Assembly (NCBI RefSeq): GCF_024300825.1
Contig: NZ_CP101323.1
Coordinates: 2,108,001-2,172,000 of the forward strand
Length of the DNA stretch: 64,000 nt
Direction of reading: 5' to 3'
Source of the DNA: Natronomonas gomsonensis
Lineage (GTDB): Archaea > Halobacteriota > Halobacteria > Halobacteriales > Haloarculaceae
Below the pieces are notes generated by a model. The model was not told the DNA's origin, ran no database searches, and was given only the letters and a program-made list of their open reading frames with translations. Below are positions 1,990-23,839 of this stretch, one piece after another. The translations under genes were made by a program, and so were the position numbers. How positions within the stretch are numbered: the stretch's first letter is position 1; the number at the start of each line of letters is the position of its first letter.

Positions 1990-3489
1990 TTACAGTTCGT
2001 AGAGGTCGCCGAACTTCGATTCCGCGTATTCGAGGAAGTAGTCGGCGGTGAAGGATTCGCCGGTGGCCTCCTCGATGAGGTCGTCGGTGGTGTAGCGCTG
2101 ACCGTGGCTGTGGACGTTGTCGGTGAGCCACTCGTGGAGCGCGTCGAATTCGCCGGAGCGGACCTGCGAGTCGAGGTCGCCGATGTCGGAGGCGGCGGCG
2201 TCGTACAGTTGGGCCGCCAGCACGCTCCCCAGCGAGTAGGTCGGGAAGTAGCCGAAGGAGCCGTGACTCCAGTGGATGTCCTGCAGACAGCCCTCGCCGT
2301 CGGCGTCGGGGCGGACGCCGAGGTACTCTTCCATCTTGTCGTTCCAGACGGCGGGGACCTCCTCGACGTCGAGGTCGCCGGCCAGCAGGTCGCGTTCGAT
2401 TTCGAACCGCAGGATGATGTGGAGGTGGTAGGTGAGTTCGTCGGCCTCGACGCGGATGAGGTTGTCCTCGTACACCTGGTTTGCGGCCTCGTAGGCCTGC
2501 CGGGCGGTGAGGTCGGTGCCGTACTGCTCGTTGAACTGTGTGACGAACAACTCCCAGAACGGTTGGGTGCGGCCGACGTGGTTCTCCCAGAGCCGCGATT
2601 GGGACTCGTGGACGGTCAGCCCGCGGTGTTCGCCGAGCGGAGAGCCGTAGGCGTCCTGTCGGAGCCCCTGGGTGTAGGTGGCGTGGCCGAACTCGTGGAT
2701 GGTCGAGCCAAGGGAGTCCAGCGGGTCGGACTCGTCGAATCGGGTGGTGACGCGGGCGTCGAACTGCGTCCCCGAGGAGAAGGGGTGCGGTGCGGTGTCG
2801 ATGCGGCCGTGTTCGAAGTCGTAGCCGAGCGTGTCAAGGGCCTCACGAGCGAGGTCCATCTGTTGGTCTTCGGGGAAGGTGCCGTCGACGCTGTAGAGGT
2901 CGGCATCGGAGTCGCGAATCTCGTCGATGAGGGGGACGAGGCGCTCCCGGAGGTTCTCGAGGACGCGTTCGGCGGTGTCGAGGTCGATGTACGGTTCGTA
3001 GTCCGCGAACAGCACCTCGTAGGGGTCGGCCGAGGCGTCGATGTGTTCGGCGTACTCGCGTTTGAGGTCGAGCAGGCGCTCGACGGTCGGCGCGAAGGCG
3101 TCCCAATCGTCGTCGGCTTTGGCCTCCTGCCAGACGGGGTGGGCGTCGCTCGTCGCCTCGCTGATTTCGGTGACGAGGTCGGTCGGAACGCGGGCCTTCC
3201 GCTCGTGTTGTCGTCGAATCTCGCGGACGACGGCGGCTTCCTCGGCGGGGAGGTCGGCATCATCGAGGGCATCGAGGTTTTCGGCCACGTCGTCGTCGAC
3301 GAGGATGTCGTGGGCGACCGCCGAAATCGCACCGCGCTGTTTCGAGCGGGCGGGCGTCCCACCTTCGGGCATCATCACTTCCTGGTCCCAGCTCAGCACC
3401 ATGTTCGCGTCGCCGAGATACGTCGCCCGCTGGTACTCCGCCAGCAGGTCGGCGTAGGCCTCGGGGACGCTCGATTGGTCCGTCGCCAT
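1990..3489 (-). CDS. Carboxypeptidase Taq family (M32) metallocarboxypeptidase
   Basis: 499 residues from the ATG at 3489 (MATDQSS). The in-frame codon further upstream at 3516 adds nine hydrophobic residues untypical of the family, so it was not used. The zinc motif HEFGH lies at residues 265-269 and is followed about 25 residues later by HESQSRLWEN, which holds the third ligand Glu; both are diagnostic of M32 enzymes. These cytoplasmic metalloenzymes remove C-terminal residues from peptides. The length matches the usual size of about 500 residues. The gene is monocistronic and convergent with the RDD gene. Confidence 0.93.
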   Translation of the reverse strand: MATDQSSVPEAYADLLAEYQRATYLGDANMVLSWDQEVMMPEGGTPARSKQRGAISAVAHDILVDDDVAENLDALDDADLPAEEAAVVREIRRQHERKARVPTDLVTEISEATSDAHPVWQEAKADDDWDAFAPTVERLLDLKREYAEHIDASADPYEVLFADYEPYIDLDTAERVLENLRERLVPLIDEIRDSDADLYSVDGTFPEDQQMDLAREALDTLGYDFEHGRIDTAPHPFSSGTQFDARVTTRFDESDPLDSLGSTIHEFGHATYTQGLRQDAYGSPLGEHRGLTVHESQSRLWENHVGRTQPFWELFVTQFNEQYGTDLTARQAYEAANQVYEDNLIRVEADELTYHLHIILRFEIERDLLAGDLDVEEVPAVWNDKMEEYLGVRPDADGEGCLQDIHWSHGSFGYFPTYSLGSVLAAQLYDAAASDIGDLDSQVRSGEFDALHEWLTDNVHSHGQRYTTDDLIEEATGESFTADYFLEYAESKFGDLYEL

Positions 3490-3550
3490 GGCAAATACTG
3501 CGAGGCCCGGAGCCAAGAACCCACGGATACCGGACGAGTCGGTCAGCCGG

Positions 3551-3745
3551 TCACTCGCCGGCTTTTCGGCGCCACAGCACGTACAGGAGGATGAGGGCGC
3601 CTTCGATCCGCGCCGCGGTGTACACCCACGGCCGGAGTTCTACGTCGTCGTCTTCGGTCGCGAGGTTCATCCAGAAGTCGACGAGCGGTTTCGGAAACGC
3701 CACTTCGAGCAACCCGAGGAGTGCGAGGAGCAATCGGAATGCCAT
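3551..3745 (-). CDS. Small membrane protein, unknown function
   Basis: 64 residues from the ATG at 3745. Two hydrophobic stretches (MAFRLLLALLGLLEVAF at the N-terminus and EGALILLYVLW near the C-terminus) flank a central hydrophilic part rich in Asp and Glu. The ending WRRKAGE is a positive-inside anchor. It sits between the M32 and M20 peptidase genes, all leftward. I do not recognise a family; the acidic loop and hydrophobic pattern match many small haloarchaeal membrane proteins. A longer start in the same frame exists, but it gives low-complexity Ser/Pro-rich sequence that is a shadow of the peptidase gene. Confidence 0.65.
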   Translation of the reverse strand: MAFRLLLALLGLLEVAFPKPLVDFWMNLATEDDDVELRPWVYTAARIEGALILLYVLWRRKAGE

Positions 3746-13128: not shown

Positions 13129-14079
13129 TCATTCGGGGCGCAGTTCCGAGAAGTCGACATCGGCGAAGTCGACGTCGAGGTCATCGGCGAAGGCTTCGGC
13201 GTATTCGATGTAGCGGCGGGCTGTCTCGATGTTGGCAATATCTATCATGTCACCCTCGTAGCGGACGGCGCTTTTGCCCTCGTTTTCGGCTTCCAACAGC
13301 GTCTCCATCGCGCCGACCCAGTACTCGACGGTGTCGGCGTCGGGCAGGAAGATTTCGTTGGCGTGTTCGACGTGGGAGGGGTGGATGACGAGGTAGCCGG
13401 TGTAGCCCATCTCCCGGGAGAACTGCATGTCCTTCCGGAGTCCCTCGATGTCGCCGACGTCGACGTACGTGCCGGCGAGCGGGAACTCGATTTCGGCGGC
13501 GCGAGCGTCCATCAGCGCCTGTTCGCGGAGGTGCAGCGTCTCCAGTCCTTCCCGTCCGGGGCCGGTCCACTCAAAGCCGAGTGCGCGGTTCGTGTCGGTA
13601 CCCTTCACCGCGCCACAGCCGATGGTGCCGACCCGGTCGGCGGCCTCACAGAGTTCGTACACCTGTCGCATCGCTTGTGCGGTTTCGACGCTGACGGTCA
13701 ACTCGATGCCGCCGACCTCCAGCCCCTCCCGGCGCTCGATGTGAGTCAACACCGTATCGAGCCGTTCGATGTCGTTCGGTTCCCGGACCTTCGGGACGGT
13801 TATCGCCTCCAGTTCCTCGCAGGCGATGGCCTCGAAGTCGTGTTCGGCGAATCCCTCGCTTGCGTTGGGGTGGGCGTTGACGCGGACGTGGACGCGCTGG
13901 CCCTCGGCGTGGAGTTTCGGGAGGTGTTCGGCGACGATGTCGCGGGCGGCCTCCTTCTCTTCGGGCGGGACCGAATCCTCCAAATCGAGGATGATGACGT
14001 CGGCATCGTTCTCGTGGGCGCTTTCGACCCAGCCCTCACGATTCCCGGGAATGAACAGCACTGAGCGAGCGGGTTCCAT
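13129..14079 (-). CDS. HpcH/HpaI aldolase / CitE-like CoA-ester lyase
   Basis: 316 residues of the CitE superfamily. Visible motifs are RSVLFIPGNR at the N-terminus, DVIILDLEDSVPPEEK (substrate/metal region), VSVETAQAM with the metal-binding Glu, and GYTGYLVIHPSHV near the end. Characterised relatives cleave malyl-CoA, beta-methylmalyl-CoA or citramalyl-CoA to acetyl-CoA or pyruvate plus a second product. Length matches the family. It has its own leaderless promoter (TATA at 14102-14110) although it lies inside a leftward group. With the MaoC and CoA-transferase genes at 30.8-32.8 kb it could complete a C5-dicarboxylate pathway. Confidence 0.88.
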   Translation of the reverse strand: MEPARSVLFIPGNREGWVESAHENDADVIILDLEDSVPPEEKEAARDIVAEHLPKLHAEGQRVHVRVNAHPNASEGFAEHDFEAIACEELEAITVPKVREPNDIERLDTVLTHIERREGLEVGGIELTVSVETAQAMRQVYELCEAADRVGTIGCGAVKGTDTNRALGFEWTGPGREGLETLHLREQALMDARAAEIEFPLAGTYVDVGDIEGLRKDMQFSREMGYTGYLVIHPSHVEHANEIFLPDADTVEYWVGAMETLLEAENEGKSAVRYEGDMIDIANIETARRYIEYAEAFADDLDVDFADVDFSELRPE

Positions 14080-14101
14080 GTATTGAAATCTACGGAGGAG
14101 T

Positions 14102-14110
14102 CCTTATACC
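14102..14110 (-). promoter_or_regulatory. Internal TATA box ahead of the CitE-like gene
   Basis: Minus-strand GGTATAAGG, centred 27 bases upstream of the ATG at 14079, in the 41-base gap after the monooxygenase gene. It predicts a separate leaderless transcript for citE and the genes after it. Confidence 0.6.
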
Positions 14111-14120
14111 TTGTCCCGAA

Positions 14121-15119
14121 TCACAGGTCGGCGACGCGTGGGATTACCTCCTCTCCGAGCAGTTCGATGGCATCGACGGCGCGTTCGTGGTCCATTCCGG
14201 GCCACTGGACGCGGGCGACGAGGTGGTCGACGCCGAGCGTCTCGTTGAGCGATTCGAGGTCGGCGACAACCTCATCGGGCGTGCCGATGAGATACCGGCC
14301 CTCGCTGACCCGCTCGAAGCGCTCCCGTCTGCTCAAATCCTCGCCGTCGTCGTCGATGACGCCCCACTCCGACAGCGAGTCGAACTTGTCGAGGATGTAC
14401 GGCGCGGCGGTGTCGATGGCTTTCTCGGTCGTCTCGGCGACGTACACGTCGCGTCGAATCGGCCGACAGGACGGCTCCTCGGTGAGTTCGCGCTCGTAGA
14501 GGCCGACGGCCTTCTTCAGTTTCGAGACGGGCGAGACGGGGTCGATGAGCCACGCGTCGCCGAGTGCGGCGGCCCGCCGGACGGCCGAGGGTGCCGACCC
14601 GCCGAGCCATATCGGCGGCCCGGATTCCTGTACTGGACGAGGGCGGAGCGTCACGTCCTCGAAGGCGTAGTGGTCACCGTCGTAGGAGACGCCGTCCTCG
14701 GACCACAGTGCCCGGAGGATTTCGACGCCTTCGGTGACGCGGCCGGCGCGTTCGGCCTTGTCGACGCCGACGGTGTCGAACTCGGCGTCGCGGTAGCCGG
14801 CGGCGGCACCGAAGACGACGTTGCCGCCCGAAATCACGTCGAGGGTGGCGACTCGCTCGGCGACCAAGGCGGGATTGTGCAGCGGCAACAGACAGACGCT
14901 CGTCCCGACGCGGACGTCGCCGTCGAACTCCGCCGCGAGACGGGCGAGCGTCTGGAAGTTGTCGAAGTAGATGTCGTCGGTGAAGTGGTGTTCGCCGACG
15001 AACAGCCCCTCGAAGCCGCTTTCCTCGGCAATTCGAGCCTGTTCGAGCAACTCCGCGAGACAGCCCTCGGGGTCGCGATCGCCCGGGTGTTGGGTCAGCC
15101 CCATCAGGCTAACGTCCAC
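14121..15119 (-). CDS. LLM-class flavin-dependent oxidoreductase
   Basis: 332 residues, a luciferase-like monooxygenase fold (TIM barrel using F420 or FMN). Recognisable pieces are DVSLMGLTQHPGDRD at the start, GFEGLFVGEHHFTDD, RVGTSVCLLPLHNPALVAERVATLD and GAAAGYRDAEFDTVGVD, followed by GPPIWLGGSAPSAVRRAA. Members oxidise diverse small molecules such as alkanes, sulfonates or terpenoid ketones, or use F420. The stop of the upstream DUF6282 gene and this start are 2 bases apart, so the two proteins are co-expressed. Substrate and cofactor are not determined. Confidence 0.9.
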   Translation of the reverse strand: MDVSLMGLTQHPGDRDPEGCLAELLEQARIAEESGFEGLFVGEHHFTDDIYFDNFQTLARLAAEFDGDVRVGTSVCLLPLHNPALVAERVATLDVISGGNVVFGAAAGYRDAEFDTVGVDKAERAGRVTEGVEILRALWSEDGVSYDGDHYAFEDVTLRPRPVQESGPPIWLGGSAPSAVRRAAALGDAWLIDPVSPVSKLKKAVGLYERELTEEPSCRPIRRDVYVAETTEKAIDTAAPYILDKFDSLSEWGVIDDDGEDLSRRERFERVSEGRYLIGTPDEVVADLESLNETLGVDHLVARVQWPGMDHERAVDAIELLGEEVIPRVADL

Positions 15120-15121
15120 AG

Positions 15122-16018
15122 TCAGGCACCTCCGAAGATGGTTTCTGGGTTGTCACGGGCCATCCGCTCGATGTCGGCACGCGGGATGCCGGCGGATTCG
15201 AGGTCGGCGTGAAACGCCGCCAGCGCGTCCGGCGGCGACATCCGCCCCGGTTGGCCGTAATCCGTCGACAGCAAGTTGTGTTCTGGGCCGGTCGCCTCGA
15301 TACCGGCGACGATTTTATCGAACATCGCGCCGTCGGCGAAGGCGTCGTGAGCCGCCTCGGGGGCATCTGGGAGGAACAACTCACGGACGGTCTCGTCGGT
15401 CACGATGGAGCAGCGTTCGAAGTATACCCCATCGCGGGCCAATCGGGCCTGCCGTTCGGGCGTGAGGCCGACGCCGTCACGGGCGGCGTGGAACTCCGGA
15501 TGCGTGACGATGACCTCGCCGTCGACCTCCGTGACGGCGTCGACGACGGCCTCGACTTCCTCGACGCCGATGTGGCCGGTTCCGACAACCATCCCGTCGT
15601 TTATCGCCTCGGTAAGCACCGACCAGACGCCGTCTTTCAGTTCGTCGTTCCCGTTCAGCAGGTCGATGGTTTTCGGTTCGCCCTGTTCGAGCATGTTCCG
15701 TTTGGCGGTCATCGTCGGGAGTTCGACGCGACTGGCACCCATCTTCGCGGCGGCGACGACGGCGTCGATGTTGATGCCGCCGACCGAGCGGTTCAAAACG
15801 ACCGTCGAAGCGAGTCGGATATCGGAGTCACAGGCCTGCTCGACGAGCGCCGCGGCCATCGTCGTCGGCGCGTGGTGGTTCTTGAGAACTAACCCACCCA
15901 TGCCGGCGGCGGCGGCGCGCCGAGCGAGTTCCACGATGTCGTGCTTTCTGTCGGTTACGTCCGGTCCCGCGTGGACGTGTGTGTCCCACGCGCCGGCGAC
16001 GGGATGCTGAGTGTCCAT
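15122..16018 (-). CDS. DUF6282 family amidohydrolase-like TIM-barrel protein
   Basis: 298 residues from the ATG at 16018. An in-frame codon at 16051 lies upstream of the predicted transcription start, while GAGG stands 8 bases before 16018, so the shorter form is chosen. Metal-ligand motifs of the amidohydrolase superfamily are present: DTHVHAGPD near the N-terminus, NHHAPTTM, VTHPEFHAA and STDYGQPGR. The family is uncharacterised as far as I know; the motifs predict a metal-dependent hydrolase. It heads a leftward group with the LLM monooxygenase. Confidence 0.8.
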   Translation of the reverse strand: MDTQHPVAGAWDTHVHAGPDVTDRKHDIVELARRAAAAGMGGLVLKNHHAPTTMAAALVEQACDSDIRLASTVVLNRSVGGINIDAVVAAAKMGASRVELPTMTAKRNMLEQGEPKTIDLLNGNDELKDGVWSVLTEAINDGMVVGTGHIGVEEVEAVVDAVTEVDGEVIVTHPEFHAARDGVGLTPERQARLARDGVYFERCSIVTDETVRELFLPDAPEAAHDAFADGAMFDKIVAGIEATGPEHNLLSTDYGQPGRMSPPDALAAFHADLESAGIPRADIERMARDNPETIFGGA

Positions 16019-16052
16019 CTGTTGTCCTCGGGGTGTGTGTATTCTTGCCACG

Positions 16053-16060
16053 AGTATTAA
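16053..16060 (-). promoter_or_regulatory. TATA box of the DUF6282 operon (decides start)
   Basis: Minus-strand TTAATACT places the transcription start near 16030, giving a short leader with GAGG before the ATG at 16018 and excluding the longer frame starting at 16051. Confidence 0.5.
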
Positions 16061-16111
16061 GCCCTCTGGGACAGGTCAGTTCCGTTTCACGACGGGCACG
16101 CGGCGCTCAAC

Positions 16112-16119
16112 TTATTTAT
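16112..16119 (+). promoter_or_regulatory. TATA box upstream of the PanE-like gene and its leader ORF
   Basis: TTATTTAT is centred 27 bases before an ATG at 16142, not before the GTG of the main gene at 16180. The predicted mRNA therefore starts with the short ORF. Confidence 0.55.
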
Positions 16120-16141
16120 GCACAGGACGCGACGGACCCGT

Positions 16142-16183
16142 ATGAACCAACGTACGACCGTCCGCTGGGGGCGATATCCGTGA
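16142..16183 (+). CDS. Possible 13-residue leader ORF coupled to the PanE-like gene
   Basis: ATG at 16142 opens MNQRTTVRWGRYP and stops at TGA 16181-16183, overlapping the GTG start of the next gene by three bases (GTGA). The TATA box 27 bases before the ATG predicts a leaderless transcript starting here. No Shine-Dalgarno sequence precedes 16180, so translation of the main gene may depend on ribosomes that finish the leader. It is too short for conservation to be judged by eye. Confidence 0.4.
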   Translation: MNQRTTVRWGRYP

Positions 16184-17094
16184 ACATCGCGGTCATCGGC
16201 GCCGGCGCCCTCGGCTGTCTGTTCGGCGGCCGACTCACCGAGGCCGGCCACGACGTCCACCTCCTGCACTACCGGCAGTCGTACGTCGACCGGTTGAACG
16301 AAGAGGGCTTGACAATCGAGAGCGAGGACGGCGAGACGACCGACATCGCCGTCGAAGCGACGACCGACGCCAGCGAGGTCGGTCCCGTCGACTTCGCAAT
16401 CGTCTTCGTCAAATCCCACCAGACCGAGGCGGCGCTGGCCGAACACGCCGCCTGTATCGGCCCCGAAACCGACCTGCTGTCGTTGCAGAACGGTCTCAGA
16501 CACTACGACCGACTGCTCGACGTCGTCGGAGAAGACCGCGCCTTCGCGGGCGTGACGTATCAGGGCGCCGTCGCCGAGGAGCCGGGATACGTTCGCGTGA
16601 CGTCGAGCGGCCCCTCGACGTTCGGCGGGACGAACGACGCGGGCGCACGCCGAATCGAGTCCGCCCTCGAAGAGGCCGGCTTCCCCGTCGAAGTGGTCGA
16701 GGACCCGCGAGCGTACATCTGGGCCAAACAACTGATGAGCCTCCCCATCAAGCCGCTGGCGGCGCTGACGCACCTCTCGAACGGCGAACTCGTCGCGACG
16801 CCGGAGACGCGAGGGTTGATGGAGCAAATCGTCGCCGAGGCCGAAACCGTCGCCGAAAGCCGCGGTATCGACATCCCGATGGACGACCCGATGGAAGAGG
16901 TCGTCACCACCTGCGAGGAGTCCCACTCCCACTACTCCAGTATGCTGCAGGACGTCCGGGCCGAACGGAAGACCGAAATCGACGACGTAAACGGCGCTAT
17001 CGTCGACATCGCCGACGAGGAGGGCATCGACGTGCCGGTGAACGAACTCGCGACGAACCTCGTTCGAGCCCTAGAGAAGAGTTACCTCGACTGA
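16180..17094 (+). CDS. Ketopantoate reductase (ApbA/PanE) family oxidoreductase
   Basis: 304 residues from a GTG at 16180, where the Rossmann motif begins (VNIAVIGAGALGCLFGGRL). The NADP-binding fold, the QNGL motif (LLSLQNGLRHYD) and the helical C-terminal domain (SMLQDVRAERKTEIDDVNGAIV) are all typical. The catalytic Lys is kept (WAKQLMSLPIKPLAAL), but the two Asn residues normal in this motif (K-x3-N and INPL) read Ser and Lys, so the substrate may not be ketopantoate. It could reduce another 2-keto acid within the catabolic island. It converges on the PaaI gene. Confidence 0.85.
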   Translation: MNIAVIGAGALGCLFGGRLTEAGHDVHLLHYRQSYVDRLNEEGLTIESEDGETTDIAVEATTDASEVGPVDFAIVFVKSHQTEAALAEHAACIGPETDLLSLQNGLRHYDRLLDVVGEDRAFAGVTYQGAVAEEPGYVRVTSSGPSTFGGTNDAGARRIESALEEAGFPVEVVEDPRAYIWAKQLMSLPIKPLAALTHLSNGELVATPETRGLMEQIVAEAETVAESRGIDIPMDDPMEEVVTTCEESHSHYSSMLQDVRAERKTEIDDVNGAIVDIADEEGIDVPVNELATNLVRALEKSYLD

Positions 17095-17100
17095 GACGGT

Positions 17101-17535
17101 TCAGTTCTCGCTTTCGTCGACGTAGTAGGAGGCGCGGCCGACGGCGACGGTGGTCCACTCGCCGGGGGCGCGCTCGGAATCGATGTCGACCTCGATGACG
17201 ACGAGCGAGCGCCCGTGGCGGCGAACCTGGGCCTCCGCGCGCAGGTCTCCGGTCGCCGGACGAAGATACGAGAGGTTCATCTCCGTCGTGGCATAGAGCG
17301 CCGTCTCGGGGTCCTCGAGCACCGTCCGGAGCGCGGTGCCCGCGGCGTTGTCCAGCAGCGTCGCGAGGACGCCGCCGTGGAGCGTATCGCCGTTGGGGTT
17401 CGTGAGTTCCGCGCGGTGAGGGAGACCGAGTACGGCCCGACCCTCCGACTCGGACTCGATGAAGACGCCGAGCCACGACAGCAGCCCGGTCTCGGCGACG
17501 ACGCGTTCGGAGGCCGTCTCGGGTGCGTTCGTCAT
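17101..17535 (-). CDS. PaaI family hot-dog thioesterase
   Basis: 144 residues. The HGG signature NGDTLHGGVLATLLDNAAGTAL and the strand TEMNLSYLRPATGDLRAEAQVRRHGRSLVVIEVDI are characteristic of PaaI-type acyl-CoA thioesterases, which release toxic or stalled CoA esters during aromatic or fatty-acid breakdown. It starts three bases before the SDR stop, so it belongs to the leftward BKACE-SDR-PaaI group. Confidence 0.88.
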   Translation of the reverse strand: MTNAPETASERVVAETGLLSWLGVFIESESEGRAVLGLPHRAELTNPNGDTLHGGVLATLLDNAAGTALRTVLEDPETALYATTEMNLSYLRPATGDLRAEAQVRRHGRSLVVIEVDIDSERAPGEWTTVAVGRASYYVDESEN

Positions 17536-17538
17536 GGC

Positions 17539-18311
17539 TTACTTCGGGTCCTCGGAGTGCGGTGGGACGCCCCGGACGGTCAGGATTTCGCCGTCGATGA
17601 AGGAGGCGGCGGGACTGGCGAGGAACTCGACGACGTCGGCGATTTCGGCCGTCGTCCCGGTCTTTCGGTCCACCTCCGAACGGTCGATGTCGGCGGGGTC
17701 GGTGTCACCGGCGGTGACCGCACCGGGCGTGGCGATAAAGCCCGGCGCGACGCAGTTGACGCGGACGCCCTCCGACGCCCACTCGCTCGCAAGCGATTTC
17801 GTGAGGTTGTTGACGCCGGCTTTCGCCGCGCCGTAGTGGGTTTCGTGGGGGGCGGCCTCCTGGCTCCGAAGGCTGGAGATGTTGACGACCGAGCCGCCGC
17901 CGTCTTGGAGCGCCTCGCGGGCGGCGTGGGTGCAGTTGAACACGCCGTGGAGGTTGATGTCGACGATGGTCTTCCAGCCGTTCTCGCTGAGGTCGTCGAA
18001 GTCGCATTTGAAGACGGCGCCGGCGTTGTTCACGAGCACATCGAGGCCGCCGAACTCCTCGACGGTGGTCTCGACCATCGCCTCGACGGAATCGCGGTCA
18101 CGAACGTCACACTCGATGGGAGGACCCGTCCCGGCGTGTCGCCGTCGTTGATTTCCTCGGCGACGGGGTCGACGTTGTCCTGCTCGCGAGAACAGATAGT
18201 CGTATCGACGCCTTGGGCGGCGAAGCCCTCGGCGATTCGTCGGCCGATACCGCTTGACGCACCGGTGACGATGGCACTCGAACCATCGACGGTGAACTTG
18301 TTGTCGGACAT
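17539..18311 (-). pseudogene. Short-chain dehydrogenase/reductase interrupted by a one-base frameshift
   Basis: The N-terminal part from ATG 18311 (KFTVDGSSAIVTGASSGIGRR) reads in one frame to about VAEEINDGDTPGRVLP and the rest (IECDVRDRDSV onward) continues in another frame to the TAA at 17539. Together they would form a normal SDR of about 257 residues: TGASSGIG cofactor motif, DVLVNNAGA, the YGAAK active site and a C-terminal loop. The break is at 18118-18121, where CCC on the coding strand is one base short. It may be a real inactivating deletion, a sequencing error in a homopolymer, or programmed frameshifting. Its own TATA-like TTAA lies at 18341-18344. Confidence 0.85.
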
Positions 18312-18353
18312 GCTGAAGCGTGGATAGATTCGGTGTGTGCTTAACTGTAGGGG

Positions 18354-19289
18354 TCAGAACGCGACGTTCTCCTGGCCCTTCAAATCGAGGAAGGACCGGA
18401 CTTCGTCGGGGGAGGCGATTTCGCGGCCGGTCACCTCCGTCGTCAAATCGACCATCTTCTCGACCTGCTGGACGTTGCTCTCGGCGAGTTCGCCCTTCCG
18501 GATGTAGAGGCTGTCTTCGAGGCCGACGCGGGCGTGTCCACCCATGCTGACCGCCGTGGTGCCGAGGGCCATCTGCATGCGGCCGGCGCCGATGACCGAA
18601 AACGAGAACTCGTCGCCGAACAGTTTCTCGGCGGTGTCGACCAGGTGCAGCAGGTGGTCGTGGTCGGCGCTGATGCCGCCGTGAATCCCCATCACGAACT
18701 GGATGTGGATGGGCGTCTCGAGGATGCCGCGGTCGACGAAGTGCTTGGCGTTGTAGAGATGTCCCACGTCGTAACACTCCAGTTCCGGCTTCGTGCCGTG
18801 AGATTCGAACATCGGCAGAATCGTTTCGAGGGACTCGAAGGAGTTCGGGAAGATGAGGTCCCGAGTTCCCTCCAGATACTCCGTCTCCCATTCGTATTTG
18901 AACTCCTCGAAGGCGTCGAGGATGGGGTAGAGCCCGAAGTTTATCGACCCCATGTTACAGGAGGCCATCTCGGGTTCCAGTTCGGGGACGACGGCGGTTC
19001 GCTCCTCGACGGTCATCGTCGGTGCGCCGCCGGTCGTCGGCTGAACGATGGCGTCACAGCGGTCCTTAACGCGCTCGGCCACCTCACGGAACAACTCGAG
19101 GTCCGAGGTCGGTTCGCCGGTCTCTGGGTCCCGGACGTGGAGGTGGAGGATGCTGGCGCCTGCCTCGGCGGCCCCCACCGCCTCCTCGACGATTTCGTCG
19201 GGCGTTATCGGCAGATGCGGCGACATGGTCGGCACGTGGATGGCACCCGTCACGGCACACGTCACTATCGCTTTGTCGAACGTCCTCAT
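18354..19289 (-). CDS. Beta-keto acid cleavage enzyme family (BKACE, DUF849)
   Basis: 311 residues from the ATG at 19289; a longer frame upstream covers promoter sequence. The TIM-barrel signature of BKACE is clear: TCAVTGAIHVPTMSPHLPITP, the zinc-binding ILHLHVRDPETG, QPTTGGAPTMT, ASCNMGSINFG and the C-terminal SVIGAGRMQMAL with VGLEDSLYI. Characterised members condense a beta-keto acid with acetyl-CoA and release acetoacetate plus a CoA ester; the best known, Kce, works in lysine fermentation. It heads a leftward group with an SDR and a thioesterase, divergent from an IclR regulator. Confidence 0.93.
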   Translation of the reverse strand: MRTFDKAIVTCAVTGAIHVPTMSPHLPITPDEIVEEAVGAAEAGASILHLHVRDPETGEPTSDLELFREVAERVKDRCDAIVQPTTGGAPTMTVEERTAVVPELEPEMASCNMGSINFGLYPILDAFEEFKYEWETEYLEGTRDLIFPNSFESLETILPMFESHGTKPELECYDVGHLYNAKHFVDRGILETPIHIQFVMGIHGGISADHDHLLHLVDTAEKLFGDEFSFSVIGAGRMQMALGTTAVSMGGHARVGLEDSLYIRKGELAESNVQQVEKMVDLTTEVTGREIASPDEVRSFLDLKGQENVAF

Positions 19290-19312
19290 GAGGTAGAGTG
19301 ACACACAGGGCT

Positions 19313-19320
19313 GAATAAGC
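19313..19320 (-). promoter_or_regulatory. TATA box of the BKACE operon
   Basis: Minus-strand GCTTATTC is centred 27 bases upstream of the ATG at 19289, predicting a leaderless transcript. The neighbouring palindromes (19371-19490) lie upstream of it. Confidence 0.5.
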
Positions 19321-19370
19321 GTTCCGGTCGGGACGACTTCGCAGGGAGATGTGAACTGCCCACACATCTG

Positions 19371-19385
19371 TTCAGCATCGCTGAA
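19371..19385. promoter_or_regulatory. Palindrome TTCAGC-ATC-GCTGAA
   Basis: Perfect 6-base arms with a 3-base centre, 51-65 bases upstream of the BKACE TATA box. It is the first of four inverted repeats in the BKACE-IclR gap and is a candidate operator. Confidence 0.5.
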
Positions 19386-19408
19386 TGAATTCCGCTCACC
19401 CGCGCATT

Positions 19409-19427
19409 GCCGAATCGACGATTCGGC
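19409..19427. promoter_or_regulatory. 19-bp palindrome GCCGAATCG-A-CGATTCGGC
   Basis: Perfect 9-base arms around one central A, midway between the divergent BKACE and IclR genes. The length and symmetry suit a dimeric winged-helix regulator such as IclR. A single CGATTCGGC half-site also occurs at 30740-30748, next to the TATA box of the MaoC gene. Confidence 0.55.
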
Positions 19428-19436
19428 CGCATATCC

Positions 19437-19490
19437 ATAACAATATTATGTTTGTTATTGCAGAGGCCATAACAAGCATAGTTTTGTTAT
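19437..19490. promoter_or_regulatory. Two tandem inverted repeats ATAACAA-N8-TTGTTAT, 32 bp apart
   Basis: The same 22-base element occurs at 19437-19458 and 19469-19490. Both have identical 7-base arms and 8-base but different spacers, and both are preceded by CC. The centre-to-centre distance of 32 bp is about three helical turns, so bound proteins would stand on one face of the DNA. They lie 77-130 bases upstream of the IclR TATA box. Binding by the adjacent IclR protein is the simplest hypothesis. Confidence 0.65.
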
Positions 19491-19566
19491 TCGAAGGCCG
19501 GGTCGAGACCGGAACGGATGCCGACAGTACAGGCAAATATCACGTTAGCCGTTCAGCAGTGGTGAA

Positions 19567-19574
19567 CTTTATTT
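19567..19574 (+). promoter_or_regulatory. TATA box of the IclR gene
   Basis: CTTTATTT is centred 27 bases before the ATG at 19598, which supports that start over longer in-frame extensions running through the operator region. Confidence 0.55.
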
Positions 19575-19597
19575 CCCTCGGGGCGAAAGGGCCGAAC

Positions 19598-20371
19598 ATG
19601 GCAAACCACCGCACACGCGGAAACGAGGTCGGGTCGGTCCGGAAGACGCTTCGCATCCTCGAGTTGCTGAAGGACTTCGAGGGCGCCCGGGTGACACAGC
19701 TCGCAAACGAACTCGACTGGCCGAAAAGCACCGTCCACAGCCACCTCGAAACCCTCGAAAACGCCGGCTACATCGTCAAAGAGGACGAAACGTACCAGCT
19801 CGGCTTCCGGTTTCTCGACCTCGGCGAGCACGTCAAGTACCGCAACGAGGTGTACGGAATGGTCGAACCCCGCATCGAGGCCCTTGCCAACAGCACCGGT
19901 GAGCGCGTTCAGTTCGTCATCAGTGAACACGGCGACTGCGTCTACGCCCGCATCGCCGAGGGCGAACACGCCGTCAGCACCGGTAGCAGGCTCGGACGCC
20001 GCCGGCACATGCTCCACGCCACGGCCGCCGGGAAGTCCATTCTGGCGTTCACCGACCGCGAGGAGGTCAAACGAATCATCGAGGAGAAGGGGCTCCCGGA
20101 ACTGGCAGAGAACACCATTACCGACGAGGACACCCTCTTCGAGGAGTTGGCGGAGGTCAGAGAGCGCGGCTACGCGTTCAACTATGAGGAACACATCGAG
20201 GGACTCCGCGCCGCGGCCGCTCCCGTACAGGAGCCCGATGGTAGCGTCGTCGGCGCGATAAGCGTCTCCGGGCCGGCCCACCGGATGCACGGCGAACAGT
20301 TCACCAAGGAGTTACCCGAGAACATCCTCGGCGTCTGCAACGAAATCGAACTCGACATCGTCTACCAGTAG
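19598..20371 (+). CDS. IclR family transcriptional regulator
   Basis: 257 residues from ATG 19598, 27 bases after a TATA box. The N-terminal winged helix (VRKTLRILELLKDFEGARVTQLANELDWPKSTVHSHLETLENAGYI, about residues 12-60) is followed by the IclR effector domain with the hallmark HMLHATAAGKSILAF and the ligand pocket segment IEGLRAAAAPVQEPDGSVVGAISVSGPA. Such regulators sense small organic acids. It lies between the BKACE operon and an acyl-CoA dehydrogenase, with tandem palindromes upstream, and is the likely controller of the catabolic island. Confidence 0.93.
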   Translation: MANHRTRGNEVGSVRKTLRILELLKDFEGARVTQLANELDWPKSTVHSHLETLENAGYIVKEDETYQLGFRFLDLGEHVKYRNEVYGMVEPRIEALANSTGERVQFVISEHGDCVYARIAEGEHAVSTGSRLGRRRHMLHATAAGKSILAFTDREEVKRIIEEKGLPELAENTITDEDTLFEELAEVRERGYAFNYEEHIEGLRAAAAPVQEPDGSVVGAISVSGPAHRMHGEQFTKELPENILGVCNEIELDIVYQ

Positions 20372-20475
20372 CCGAACATCGGGGGCCAGCACCTCAGTCG
20401 GGTCCTCTCCTGCTGGGATTTGGTACCCAAACACTTACATTGGATTTCCGCCTACACTCTTCCGGTAGCAGACGC

Positions 20476-21747
20476 ATGGAGCTAGAATTCTCTAACGCAA
20501 CGAAGATGCTTCGTCAGGAGGTCCGGCGGTTCGTCGACGAGGAGTTCCGTCCAATCCTCAACGACCTGCCGGACGAAATCGAGCGATACCATGACCTCGA
20601 CCCCGAGAACCCCGAACTCACGGACAACGTTCGGCCCCACCCCATCAAGATTCCCGAGGATGACCGACAGCGCCTTCGAGAGAAGGCCAAGGAGGCCGGC
20701 TTCTGGGCGATGGGTGTGCCCGAGGAGTACGGCGGCGGCGGCCTCAATCTCGTCGAGCGGTGTGTCGTCCTCGAAGAACTGTCGAAACACCGGATGGGGC
20801 TGTATCAGGCCGGTCTCGGCGTCATCGAACTCGGACCGGGACTGACCGTCGGCGAACCGTCCGCGTACCTCGAAAACGCGGACGAGTACCAAATCGAGGA
20901 GTTCTTCCAGCCGTGTATCGACGGCGAGAAACAGAGTTGTTTCGGCCTCACCGAACCGGCCGCCGGCTCTGACCCCCGGGGGATGGAGACGCGCGCCGAA
21001 AAGGACGGCGGCGAGTGGGTCATCAACGGCACGAAACACTACATCTCGTGGGCGGGAGACTCCGATTTCATCATCCTCTTTGCCCGCACCGAGCCGAAAG
21101 ACGACGACATCAACGACCACGGTATCACGTCGTTCCTCGTCCCCTCCGACAGCGACGGCGTCTCGATGCGGTCGATGCCGGTCATCCGACCGGAGTACCC
21201 CTTCGAGGTGCGACTCAACGACGTGCGCGTGCCCGACGAGAACGTCCTCGGTGAGGTCGGCGGCGGCCTCGGCATCGCAAAGCAGTGTCTCGGCGAATCG
21301 CGCGTGCTGTACGCCGCGAACTCGCTTGGCCCCATCGACCAGTCCATCCGGATGGGCATCGAGTGGGCCAACGACCGCGTCGTCGGCGAGGAGAAACTCG
21401 CAGACAAGCAGGCCATCCAGTGGAAAATCGCGAAATCCGCCGTCGATTACCAAGCCGCGAAGTACTCCGTGTACCACGCCGCCCAGCGCTTCGACGACGG
21501 CGAGGATATCCGGCATGCGGCCTCCATCACGAAGTACCAGACGACGGAGACGCTGTGGACGGTGCTGGACCGGATGGTCCAGATTCACGGCGGCGCCGGC
21601 GTCGACGGCGACCTCCCGCTGGAACGGTGGCTCCGGGAGTCCCGGGTGCGCCGCATCGGTGAAGGCCCCTCCGAGGTCCAACTGAAGACCATCGCCCGGA
21701 ACCTGCTGAAAGGATACGAAGACCCCGACCCGCTCCCGCTGAACTGA
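20476..21747 (+). CDS. Acyl-CoA dehydrogenase family flavoenzyme
   Basis: 423 residues from ATG 20476. All ACAD landmarks are present: GFWAMGVPEEYGGGG in the N-terminal helical domain, FGLTEPAAGSDPRGMETRA and WVINGTKHYISWAGDSDF in the middle beta domain, and QIHGGAGVDGDLPLERWLRESRVRRIGEGPSEVQ at the C-terminus, where the Glu of IGEGPSE is the expected catalytic base. It oxidises an acyl-CoA to enoyl-CoA with electron transfer to ETF, although no ETF genes are in the window. The weak promoter ACTTACAT is around 20430. Substrate unknown. Confidence 0.93.
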   Translation: MELEFSNATKMLRQEVRRFVDEEFRPILNDLPDEIERYHDLDPENPELTDNVRPHPIKIPEDDRQRLREKAKEAGFWAMGVPEEYGGGGLNLVERCVVLEELSKHRMGLYQAGLGVIELGPGLTVGEPSAYLENADEYQIEEFFQPCIDGEKQSCFGLTEPAAGSDPRGMETRAEKDGGEWVINGTKHYISWAGDSDFIILFARTEPKDDDINDHGITSFLVPSDSDGVSMRSMPVIRPEYPFEVRLNDVRVPDENVLGEVGGGLGIAKQCLGESRVLYAANSLGPIDQSIRMGIEWANDRVVGEEKLADKQAIQWKIAKSAVDYQAAKYSVYHAAQRFDDGEDIRHAASITKYQTTETLWTVLDRMVQIHGGAGVDGDLPLERWLRESRVRRIGEGPSEVQLKTIARNLLKGYEDPDPLPLN

Positions 21748-21758
21748 CCGCCCTTGTT

Positions 21759-22964
21759 TTAGGCCGCTTTCTCGCCGCCCTCGACGCCGAAGAACGCCGC
21801 GATACCTGCCAACAGCGTCACGAAACCGAGCGTCGCCAGCGGGACGCCGTACCCGTCCGTCGCGTCGATGACCACGCCGACGATGGGCGGTGAGACGACC
21901 GCCCCAATCATGATGGCTGCGACGCCGATGGCCGTTCCCGTTCCGGCTTCGTCGCCGTCCATGACCTCACTCGCCATCGTGAGATACACGCCGTTGTACC
22001 CCAGCGAGACGGCGCCGACACAGAGCAACACGACGAGCGCCACGGAAAACTCCGTCTCCGGCGAGAGAACCAACAGCGGGAGATAAAACACGAACCCGAC
22101 GATGCCGATACCGGCGAGGACGAGGTGTTTGCTCCCCGCGAAATAGGAGTCCGTCAGGAATCCGAAGCCGATTCGCGACCCCATCCCCATCAGTTGCATC
22201 CCCGTGTACACCAGTCCCGCGATAGCCGGCGCGAAAAGCAGGCTCTCGGTGAGGTACAACACGATGTAGGCCATCAGCGTGAACTGCGTGGCACCGAACA
22301 GCACGCCACTGATCAAAAACGGGAAGACGTCCCGGGTCGCCGCGAGGCGGAGTATTCGTCGATGCTGGTCGAGGACGCGCGTCGCCGAGGGGACGCGTCT
22401 CCCGGACGGTTCCGTCTTCGGCGAGTAGAGATAGATGGTTCCGAGCATCAGTATCGTCGTCGCCGCGACGACCCGGACGGCAGTTCGCCACCCGAACACC
22501 GACGCGATGGCGGGCAGGAACGCCGCACCCGCGGCGCCACCGAGCATCACGCCGGTCTGTTTGATGCTGATGCCGATGGTGCGCTGGTCGGCCGGGAACC
22601 AATCGAAGATACCCTTGTTGGTCCCCGAGGGAACGGTTCCGTACCCCAATCCGACGACGTAGGCACCCGTCGCGACCGTCCAGAACGTCGGGAGGACGCT
22701 CAAAAGGAACGAAATCGAGCCGATGAGCGCAAGCCCAACGCCGAGAGCGAACCGCTCGCCCGCGTAGTCGGTAACGATGCCGCCGGTGGTGACCGACGAG
22801 AAGTAACCGGCGTACAGCAGCGTCACGAGGAGGCCGATTTCGGTCGTCGAGACGCCGAAGTCGCCCTTGACGAACGGCGTGAGGACGGTGAGCGTGAGGA
22901 AGGTGAGGCTGCCGACGACTTGGATGGCGAACATGATCCACAGCGTCTGCCAGCGGGGTTTCAT
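21759..22964 (-). CDS. MFS transporter
   Basis: 401 residues, twelve predicted transmembrane helices. The first helices carry VGSLTFLTLTVLTPFVKGDFGVSTTEIGLLVTLLYAGYFSSVTTGGIVTDYAGERF, which contains the MFS loop 2-3 signature (G-x3-D-x2-G-x-R/E). There is a hydrophilic central loop (SPKTEPSGRRVPSATRVLDQHRRIL). It belongs to the anion/sugar-acid-like carriers by general pattern only. It stands between acyl-CoA dehydrogenase and crotonase genes, so import of the island's substrate is plausible. Confidence 0.88.
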   Translation of the reverse strand: MKPRWQTLWIMFAIQVVGSLTFLTLTVLTPFVKGDFGVSTTEIGLLVTLLYAGYFSSVTTGGIVTDYAGERFALGVGLALIGSISFLLSVLPTFWTVATGAYVVGLGYGTVPSGTNKGIFDWFPADQRTIGISIKQTGVMLGGAAGAAFLPAIASVFGWRTAVRVVAATTILMLGTIYLYSPKTEPSGRRVPSATRVLDQHRRILRLAATRDVFPFLISGVLFGATQFTLMAYIVLYLTESLLFAPAIAGLVYTGMQLMGMGSRIGFGFLTDSYFAGSKHLVLAGIGIVGFVFYLPLLVLSPETEFSVALVVLLCVGAVSLGYNGVYLTMASEVMDGDEAGTGTAIGVAAIMIGAVVSPPIVGVVIDATDGYGVPLATLGFVTLLAGIAAFFGVEGGEKAA

Positions 22965-23031
22965 CGAGTACTGAGAGAAGGCGAGCGTGAGGGCAAATAC
23001 ATTCCCCTTCGCATGAGGAGTGCTAACGAAG

Positions 23032-23039
23032 AATTATAT
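23032..23039 (+). promoter_or_regulatory. TATA box of the crotonase gene
   Basis: AATTATAT is centred 27 bases before the ATG at 23063; a leaderless transcript is predicted. Confidence 0.55.
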
Positions 23040-23062
23040 GGCCGTACGGCAATTATCGAACG

Positions 23063-23839
23063 ATGGCAGACAGAGTACTCATCGACCGAGACGACAGCAT
23101 CGCGACCGTGACCGTCAACCGGCCGGAGAAGCGCAACGCGATGGATATTCCGACCCGGAAAGCACTGTACGAGGCCTTCGAGGAAGTCGGCGAGGACGAC
23201 GAGGTGCGCGCAATCGTGCTTCGGGGCGCCGGCGACGGCTCGTTCATCGCCGGCGGCGACATCGACTCCTTCGCCGAGTTCGACCACATGGACGGCATGG
23301 AGTACGCCGAGAAGTACGCCCAGGGCCTGTACAACTACGTTGCGGACCTCCACAAACCGACCGTCGCGGCGGTCGACGGCTACGCCCTCGGCGGCGGCAC
23401 CGAAATCGCGCTGGCCTGCGATATCCGACTGGCGACCGAGGACGCGAAGTTCGGCCTCCCGGAGGTCGGCATCGGCGTCATCCCCGCCGGCGGCGGCACC
23501 CAGCGACTCGTCCAGGTCGTCGGAGCGGGCATCGCCAGCGAACTCATCCTCACCGGCCGCGTCATCGACGCCGCGGAAGCGAAGGAAATCGGCCTCGCGA
23601 ACCACGTCTACACCGACGAGGAGTTCGACGACGAGGTTCGTTCGATGGCAGAGGACCTCGCCTCGAAGGCGCCGGTCGCCCAGCGCCTCGCCAAGGAGTC
23701 CATCCGACGCAGCCTCGACATCGACGCGGGTCTGGAGTACGAGCGACTCGCCGGTGCGTTCCTGTTCGGCACCGACGACCAGAAAGAGGGAGCGAACGCC
23801 TTCCTCGAAGACAGAGAACCGGAGTACAAAAACCGATAA
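23063..23839 (+). CDS. Enoyl-CoA hydratase/isomerase family protein
   Basis: 258 residues. VNRPEKRNAMDIPTRKALYEAFEE, the oxyanion loop SFIAGGDIDSFAEF and both catalytic-Glu motifs (LGGGTEIALACD and LPEVGIGVIPAGGGTQRL) are intact, so an active hydratase is likely. The C-terminal EGANAFLEDREPEYKNR is standard. It is more canonical than the crotonase at 10.0 kb. It would hydrate the enoyl-CoA made by the acyl-CoA dehydrogenase at 20.5 kb. It converges with the fused ALDH gene. Confidence 0.92.
   Translation: MADRVLIDRDDSIATVTVNRPEKRNAMDIPTRKALYEAFEEVGEDDEVRAIVLRGAGDGSFIAGGDIDSFAEFDHMDGMEYAEKYAQGLYNYVADLHKPTVAAVDGYALGGGTEIALACDIRLATEDAKFGLPEVGIGVIPAGGGTQRLVQVVGAGIASELILTGRVIDAAEAKEIGLANHVYTDEEFDDEVRSMAEDLASKAPVAQRLAKESIRRSLDIDAGLEYERLAGAFLFGTDDQKEGANAFLEDREPEYKNR

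Follow-up and report, generated by a model that had tools for sequence, protein, structure and literature searches.

Two kinds of conserved palindrome point to a shared control region between divergent BKACE and iclR genes of Natronomonas gomsonensis

Introduction

What reads the inverted repeats in the gap between the divergent BKACE and iclR genes of Natronomonas gomsonensis? In haloarchaea, IclR proteins regulate catabolism locally, and the literature searched yielded no consensus for their operators. An earlier note on the 64,000-nucleotide stretch of DNA analysed here (the window; contig NZ_CP101323.1, positions 2,108,001 to 2,172,000) had described four inverted repeats in this gap, belonging to three motifs. 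Two of the four are tandem copies of ATAACAA-N8-TTGTTAT, for which it proposed cooperative binding on one DNA face. The note named the adjacent IclR protein as the obvious candidate and took the variety of motifs as a sign of more than one regulator.

Results

Gene layout and promoter elements

A 308-bp gap separates BKACE (start at 19289, read leftward) from iclR (start at 19598, read rightward; Table 1). The BKACE protein passes the cut-off of NCBIfam family NF053538 (454.8 bits, cut-off 430), that of 3,5-dioxohexanoate:acetyl-CoA acetone transferase, and this match is a hint to the pathway and the inducer. The recognition helix of the IclR protein begins PKSTVHSHL (residues 42-50), and the same protein in two Natronomonas relatives is 96% identical. 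Each gene is preceded by a TATA-like element. That of BKACE reads CTTATTCGG in the orthologous gaps of two relatives, and that of iclR is kept in Natronomonas relatives and in Halalkalicoccus jeotgali. Both elements probably belong to leaderless-type promoters.

The two genes lie in a catabolic cluster at 13129-23839 of the window, with genes for a CoA ester lyase, an LLM oxidoreductase, a DUF6282 protein, a 2-dehydropantoate 2-reductase, a thioesterase, an SDR protein, BKACE, IclR, an acyl-CoA dehydrogenase and an enoyl-CoA hydratase. The gene order is kept on a plasmid of the distant H. jeotgali (NC_014299; L144), and the IclR protein of that plasmid-borne cluster is 86% identical. Together, the kept order and the identity suggest recent transfer of the cluster.

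Table 1. Features of the BKACE-iclR gap and its flanking genes (positions in the window).
Feature	Position	Strand	Basis or remark
BKACE (beta-keto acid cleavage enzyme) gene, probable target	18354..19289	-	PF05853, E 8e-109
TATA-like CTTATTC, centre ~27 bp before BKACE ATG	19313..19319	-	read directly
B2, GTTCAGCATCGCTGAAT, candidate IclR-type operator ~80 bp upstream of BKACE start	19370..19386	.	TTCAGC palindrome of the earlier note
TTCAGC-ATC-GCTGAA	19371-19385	.	part of B2
Palindrome GCCGAATCG-A-CGATTCGGC	19409-19427	.	not conserved
A1, ATAACAATATTATGTTTGTTAT, ATAACAA-N8-TTGTTAT, haloarchaeal IclR-linked palindrome	19437-19458	.	
A2, ATAACAAGCATAGTTTTGTTAT, ATAACAA-N8-TTGTTAT, second copy	19469-19490	.	
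B1, GTTCAGCAGTGGTGAAC, candidate IclR-type operator abutting iclR TATA box	19551..19567	.	kept in six orthologues
TATA-like TTTATTT, ~27 bp before iclR ATG	19568..19574	+	read directly
IclR-family regulator gene	19598..20371	+	PF01614, E 7e-38; PF09339, E 3e-13

The inverted repeats and their chance expectation

Direct reading of the sequence found all four inverted repeats as described. The tandem copies, A1 and A2, are 32 bp apart from start to start, and the 25-nt copies are 80% identical. With up to three mismatches, ATAACAA-N8-TTGTTAT was found three times in the window (two exact) against 0.05 expected. The genome scan that the earlier note had proposed for this motif, allowing up to two mismatches, matched 12 places, against none for the reversed control; our genome-wide statements are all based on such pattern searches. 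At every genome site but the weakest, a TA is kept at the exact centre. Thus the spacer is N3-TA-N3 rather than N8, giving ATAACA-N4-TA-N4-TGTTAT (motif A, generalised as TWACA-N4-TA-N4-TGTWA).

Taken literally, TTCAGC-N3-GCTGAA is not unusual alone, with two occurrences at up to two mismatches against 1.3 expected. Extended to GTTCA-N7-TGAAY, the palindrome was found at two positions in the window (three strand matches) against 0.07 expected. We refer to the strict form, GTTC-N9-GAAC, as motif B. The site near BKACE, B2, ends AAT and departs from the strict motif at one position; the stricter copy, B1, was absent from the earlier note. The GCCGAATCG palindrome matched only itself, and one match was also found in 20 of 100 shuffles.

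Conservation in orthologous gaps

The gap was aligned with those of two Natronomonas relatives and H. jeotgali, to which Halorientalis litorea and Haladaptatus halobius were then added, making six. Sites of the GTTCA-N7-TGAAC type (B) were present in all four gaps of the initial set, and B1 lies at -46 to -48 relative to the iclR start in all six orthologues. In the three Natronomonas the ATAACAA pair is kept at a spacing of 32 bp. Two A sites per gap were found in five of the six orthologues, spaced 85 bp in H. jeotgali and 156 bp in H. halobius, and none in the BKACE/iclR gap of H. litorea. Fixed 32-bp phasing is therefore no general requirement, and the arrangement on one face proposed earlier is kept in Natronomonas but gives way to other spacings beyond it.

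The GCCGAATCG palindrome is absent from the two close relatives and from H. jeotgali; what relatives still carry is an imperfect inverted repeat with different letters. Being unconserved, the palindrome was not accepted as an operator. Of the three motifs first described, two thus have comparative evidence behind them and one does not. The suggestion of more than one regulator gains support, since more than one kind of site probably means more than one binding activity in the gap.

Motif B around haloarchaeal IclR genes

The 1-kb surroundings of 87 haloarchaeal IclR genes, picked regardless of motif, were examined for enrichment. In an unbiased scan for tetranucleotide palindromes, A and B ranked top. 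GTTC-N9-GAAC was observed 74 times against 9.2 expected, and the relaxed GTTY-N9-RAAC gave 124 sites, compared with 16 and 11 when the spacing differed by one base and 2 for the complementary pattern. Nearly half of the upstream GTTY-N9-RAAC sites (34/72) fall 40-80 bp before the IclR gene. A strict B site lies within 1 kb of only 58 of the 87 genes. The fourth base of B (GTTC versus GTTT) appears to track residues 42, 44 and 45, which fall where the recognition helix begins (PKST in the window protein) and are among the top-scoring columns, a covariation that drops once only distant IclR proteins are kept and that is equalled in score by residue 18, outside the helix. Because its box spacing is that of the bacterial GTT-11-AAC IclR operators, B is most likely an IclR operator.

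In Haloferax gibbonsii, strong B sites of the form GTTCGA-N5-TCGAAC, at least four in number, surround an IclR gene beside phenylacetate-type genes (L227:7902-9339).

Motif A follows the number of IclR genes

Around the 87 IclR genes, the tetranucleotide scan found TTAC-N12-GTAA 30 times against 0.4 expected and TAAC-N12-GTTA 20 times against 0.3. The core ACA-N4-TA-N4-TGT occurs near 38 of these genes, compared with 0-3 for the N2, N3, N5 and N6 variants, and strict A lies within 1 kb of 31. Across 60 genomes, generalised A gave 220 sites versus 7 for the reversed control. The number of sites per genome was fitted by 0.01 + 0.94 x IclR + 0.10 x RdfA (R2 0.76), with partial rank correlations of 0.74 for IclR, 0.07 for RdfA and 0.09 for the SMC-like family. 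The 16 genomes that have no IclR gene hold five A sites together, and in N. gomsonensis A lies within about 1 kb of six of the seven IclR genes. By these counts A is a real haloarchaeal site that ties to IclR genes by number; the window, genome and 60-genome counts alike reject a chance motif. No site like A was reported in the literature searched.

At the fetched loci all 82 distinct A sites lie outside predicted genes, as called by a simple gene finder that works from codon usage and overlooks some genes. A was about as frequent 3' of iclR as 5', and none falls in the final 80 bp before an IclR gene. Neither a flanking AT signal nor a shared offset of A was found, and a fixed relation to a TATA box or to B was rejected. 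The half-site variants of A (TAACA/TTACA) showed no covariation with recognition-helix residues. A also departs from both known groups of IclR motif (PMC8222616): group 1 reads GKTYC...GRAMC with 11-12 bases between the outer boxes, and group 2 reads TGRAACA-N1-2-TGTTYCA, against ACA-N10-TGT in A.

At L103:3786-4976, two convergent IclR genes are separated by 1.2 kb in which no protein gene is predicted. Two A sites fall in this gap, each at a distance of 220-260 bp from the stop codon of an IclR gene, and the gap may house an unannotated RNA or small gene.

Motif A beside rdfA and SMC-like genes

Genes for RdfA and its archaea-specific SMC-like partner (Sph) are the second commonest neighbour families of A, and some A sites lie at rdfA/sph genes with no IclR gene near. 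The Haloferax volcanii counterparts of both proteins are required for rod shape (PMC10869688). The lone A site of the N. gomsonensis genome (589896) lies about 60 bp downstream of an RdfA/SMC-like pair.

The two families also occur beside IclR genes far above expectation, which ties genes for cell shape to regulators of catabolism, and at such loci the A palindrome often lies between or next to them (L054:1437-4333, which is G000:C1:586936-589832; L057, L058, L099, L102, L104, L129, L143 and L198). It is kept beside a broken rdfA copy with internal stops (L132 near 3336-3587) and beside a fragment of an SMC-like gene (L122:3357-3626).

A is not confined to genomes with RdfA or its SMC-like partner: both A and IclR occur in G055 (97% complete, in a single contig) and in G035, where the other two families stay below cut-off. 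Among the IclR-less genomes that do have RdfA or SMC-like genes, four of six are without A. An RdfA/SMC-like protein therefore cannot be the general binder of A.

Discussion

A shared control region

Our preferred reading, to which we give a probability of about 0.6, is that the gap is a shared control region with two B operators for the local IclR protein and two A copies for another factor. It would serve a divergent catabolic cluster, with BKACE on one side and iclR and the acyl-CoA dehydrogenase gene on the other. The local IclR would bind both B1 and B2. Since B1 abuts the iclR TATA-like box, the protein at this site would get in the way of TBP/TFB and so repress its own gene, and the contact between site and box suggests autorepression. 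XacR is an activator of its targets and a repressor of itself via a palindrome at its own promoter; a palindrome in that place, B1 against the iclR TATA box, is also seen in the window and in the orthologues. About 50 bp separate B2 from the BKACE TATA-like box downstream of it. This placement suggests activation, and would suit either activation of the catabolic genes or their control in response to an effector. A is more likely read by a DNA-binding protein other than the local IclR. Several points stand against the preferred reading: the covariation of B weakens among distant IclR proteins and is matched by residue 18, B2 carries a mismatch, and strict B and strict A are found near only 58 and 31 of the 87 IclR genes. 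In addition, a site found 3' of iclR about as often as 5' is odd for a promoter operator. As for the adjacent IclR protein as the obvious candidate, the regulatory region is tied to iclR and the B sites are its likely operators, but IclR is no more than a possible binder of the tandem pair.

The main competitor has IclR proteins binding A as well as B, using a further binding mode or assembling as dimers of dimers, with the 32-bp tandem holding two IclR dimers on one face. The near one-to-one number of A sites and IclR genes over 60 genomes, with A nearly absent where IclR is, speaks for it, as does the frequent use of one half-site variant by neighbouring A sites of a cluster in genomes of mixed variants. 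We nevertheless regard it as rather unlikely and did not adopt A as a plain IclR operator, keeping that idea as a rival, since variants of B appear to track recognition-helix residues and those of A do not. A also falls outside both known IclR motif groups (PMC8222616) and occurs at rdfA/sph genes that have no IclR gene nearby.

Those rdfA/sph sites raise the question of whether A is instead a binding or loading site of RdfA/Sph, or an operator of their genes, its link to IclR being secondary to a frequent neighbourhood. The rank of these genes among the neighbours of A and the palindromes kept beside broken copies would fit. Once IclR is allowed for, however, the correlation of A with either family nearly vanishes, and A is found without both proteins in two genomes and is missing from most IclR-less genomes that have one of them. 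The genome counts led us to drop RdfA/Sph as the sole explanation, and we hold it to be very improbable. Least credible of all is that the repeats are chance palindromes of an AT-rich promoter region. This may fit the GCCGAATCG palindrome, which relatives have not kept, but for A and B it is already refuted by window counts far above expectation, the empty genome-wide control for A and the conservation of both motifs in orthologues.

Motif B offers a family-wide, testable rule that would predict targets of haloarchaeal IclR proteins. A, the second palindrome, spans 22 bp; there is about one for each IclR gene, and some also lie at cell-shape genes. It may be the site of an undescribed haloarchaeal factor that marks IclR catabolic clusters and rdfA/sph, or else a second IclR mode independent of the paralogue, a proposal that we put at slightly under even odds. 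Either would be new if true, and an undescribed factor would link substrate use to cell shape. The identity of the A binder would show whether one haloarchaeal factor serves both catabolic clusters and cell shape.

Comparison with known systems

GTT-11-AAC is a known class of bacterial IclR operator, a subgroup of group 1 (Suvorova and Gelfand 2021, PMC8222616). B shares its outer boxes and spacing (GTT-N11-AAC), exactly in B1 and with one mismatch in B2. As in the bacterial class, B is placed 20-80 bp ahead of the gene for the regulator itself, the centre of B1 being 39 bp from the iclR ATG. Its base variation may likewise follow residues of the recognition helix, a signal that is weaker after related proteins are removed. 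B1 departs from the bacterial consensus GTTYCRYW3RYGRAAC in its inner part (YCRY-W3-RYGR), where C5 and G13 are A and T. Tandem bacterial IclR sites are 18-22 bp apart, whereas B1 and B2 are separated by 181 bp, and B is haloarchaeal, a group that the survey did not take in (PMC8222616).

Those haloarchaeal IclR proteins that have been studied are activators of adjacent catabolic genes (PMC11519228). The papers on XacR, RhcR, GacR and MscR (PMC11519228, PMC10448506) report no A-like site; in those systems iclR adjoins its expected catabolic targets, as it does here. The CsmR motif of H. volcanii, TATCA(N4)TGATA, differs from A in half-site and spacing (PMC13286277). It is likewise a haloarchaeal palindrome, and CsmR deletion alters rdfA/sph3 expression (PMC13286277), the genes at which A is also found in other haloarchaea.
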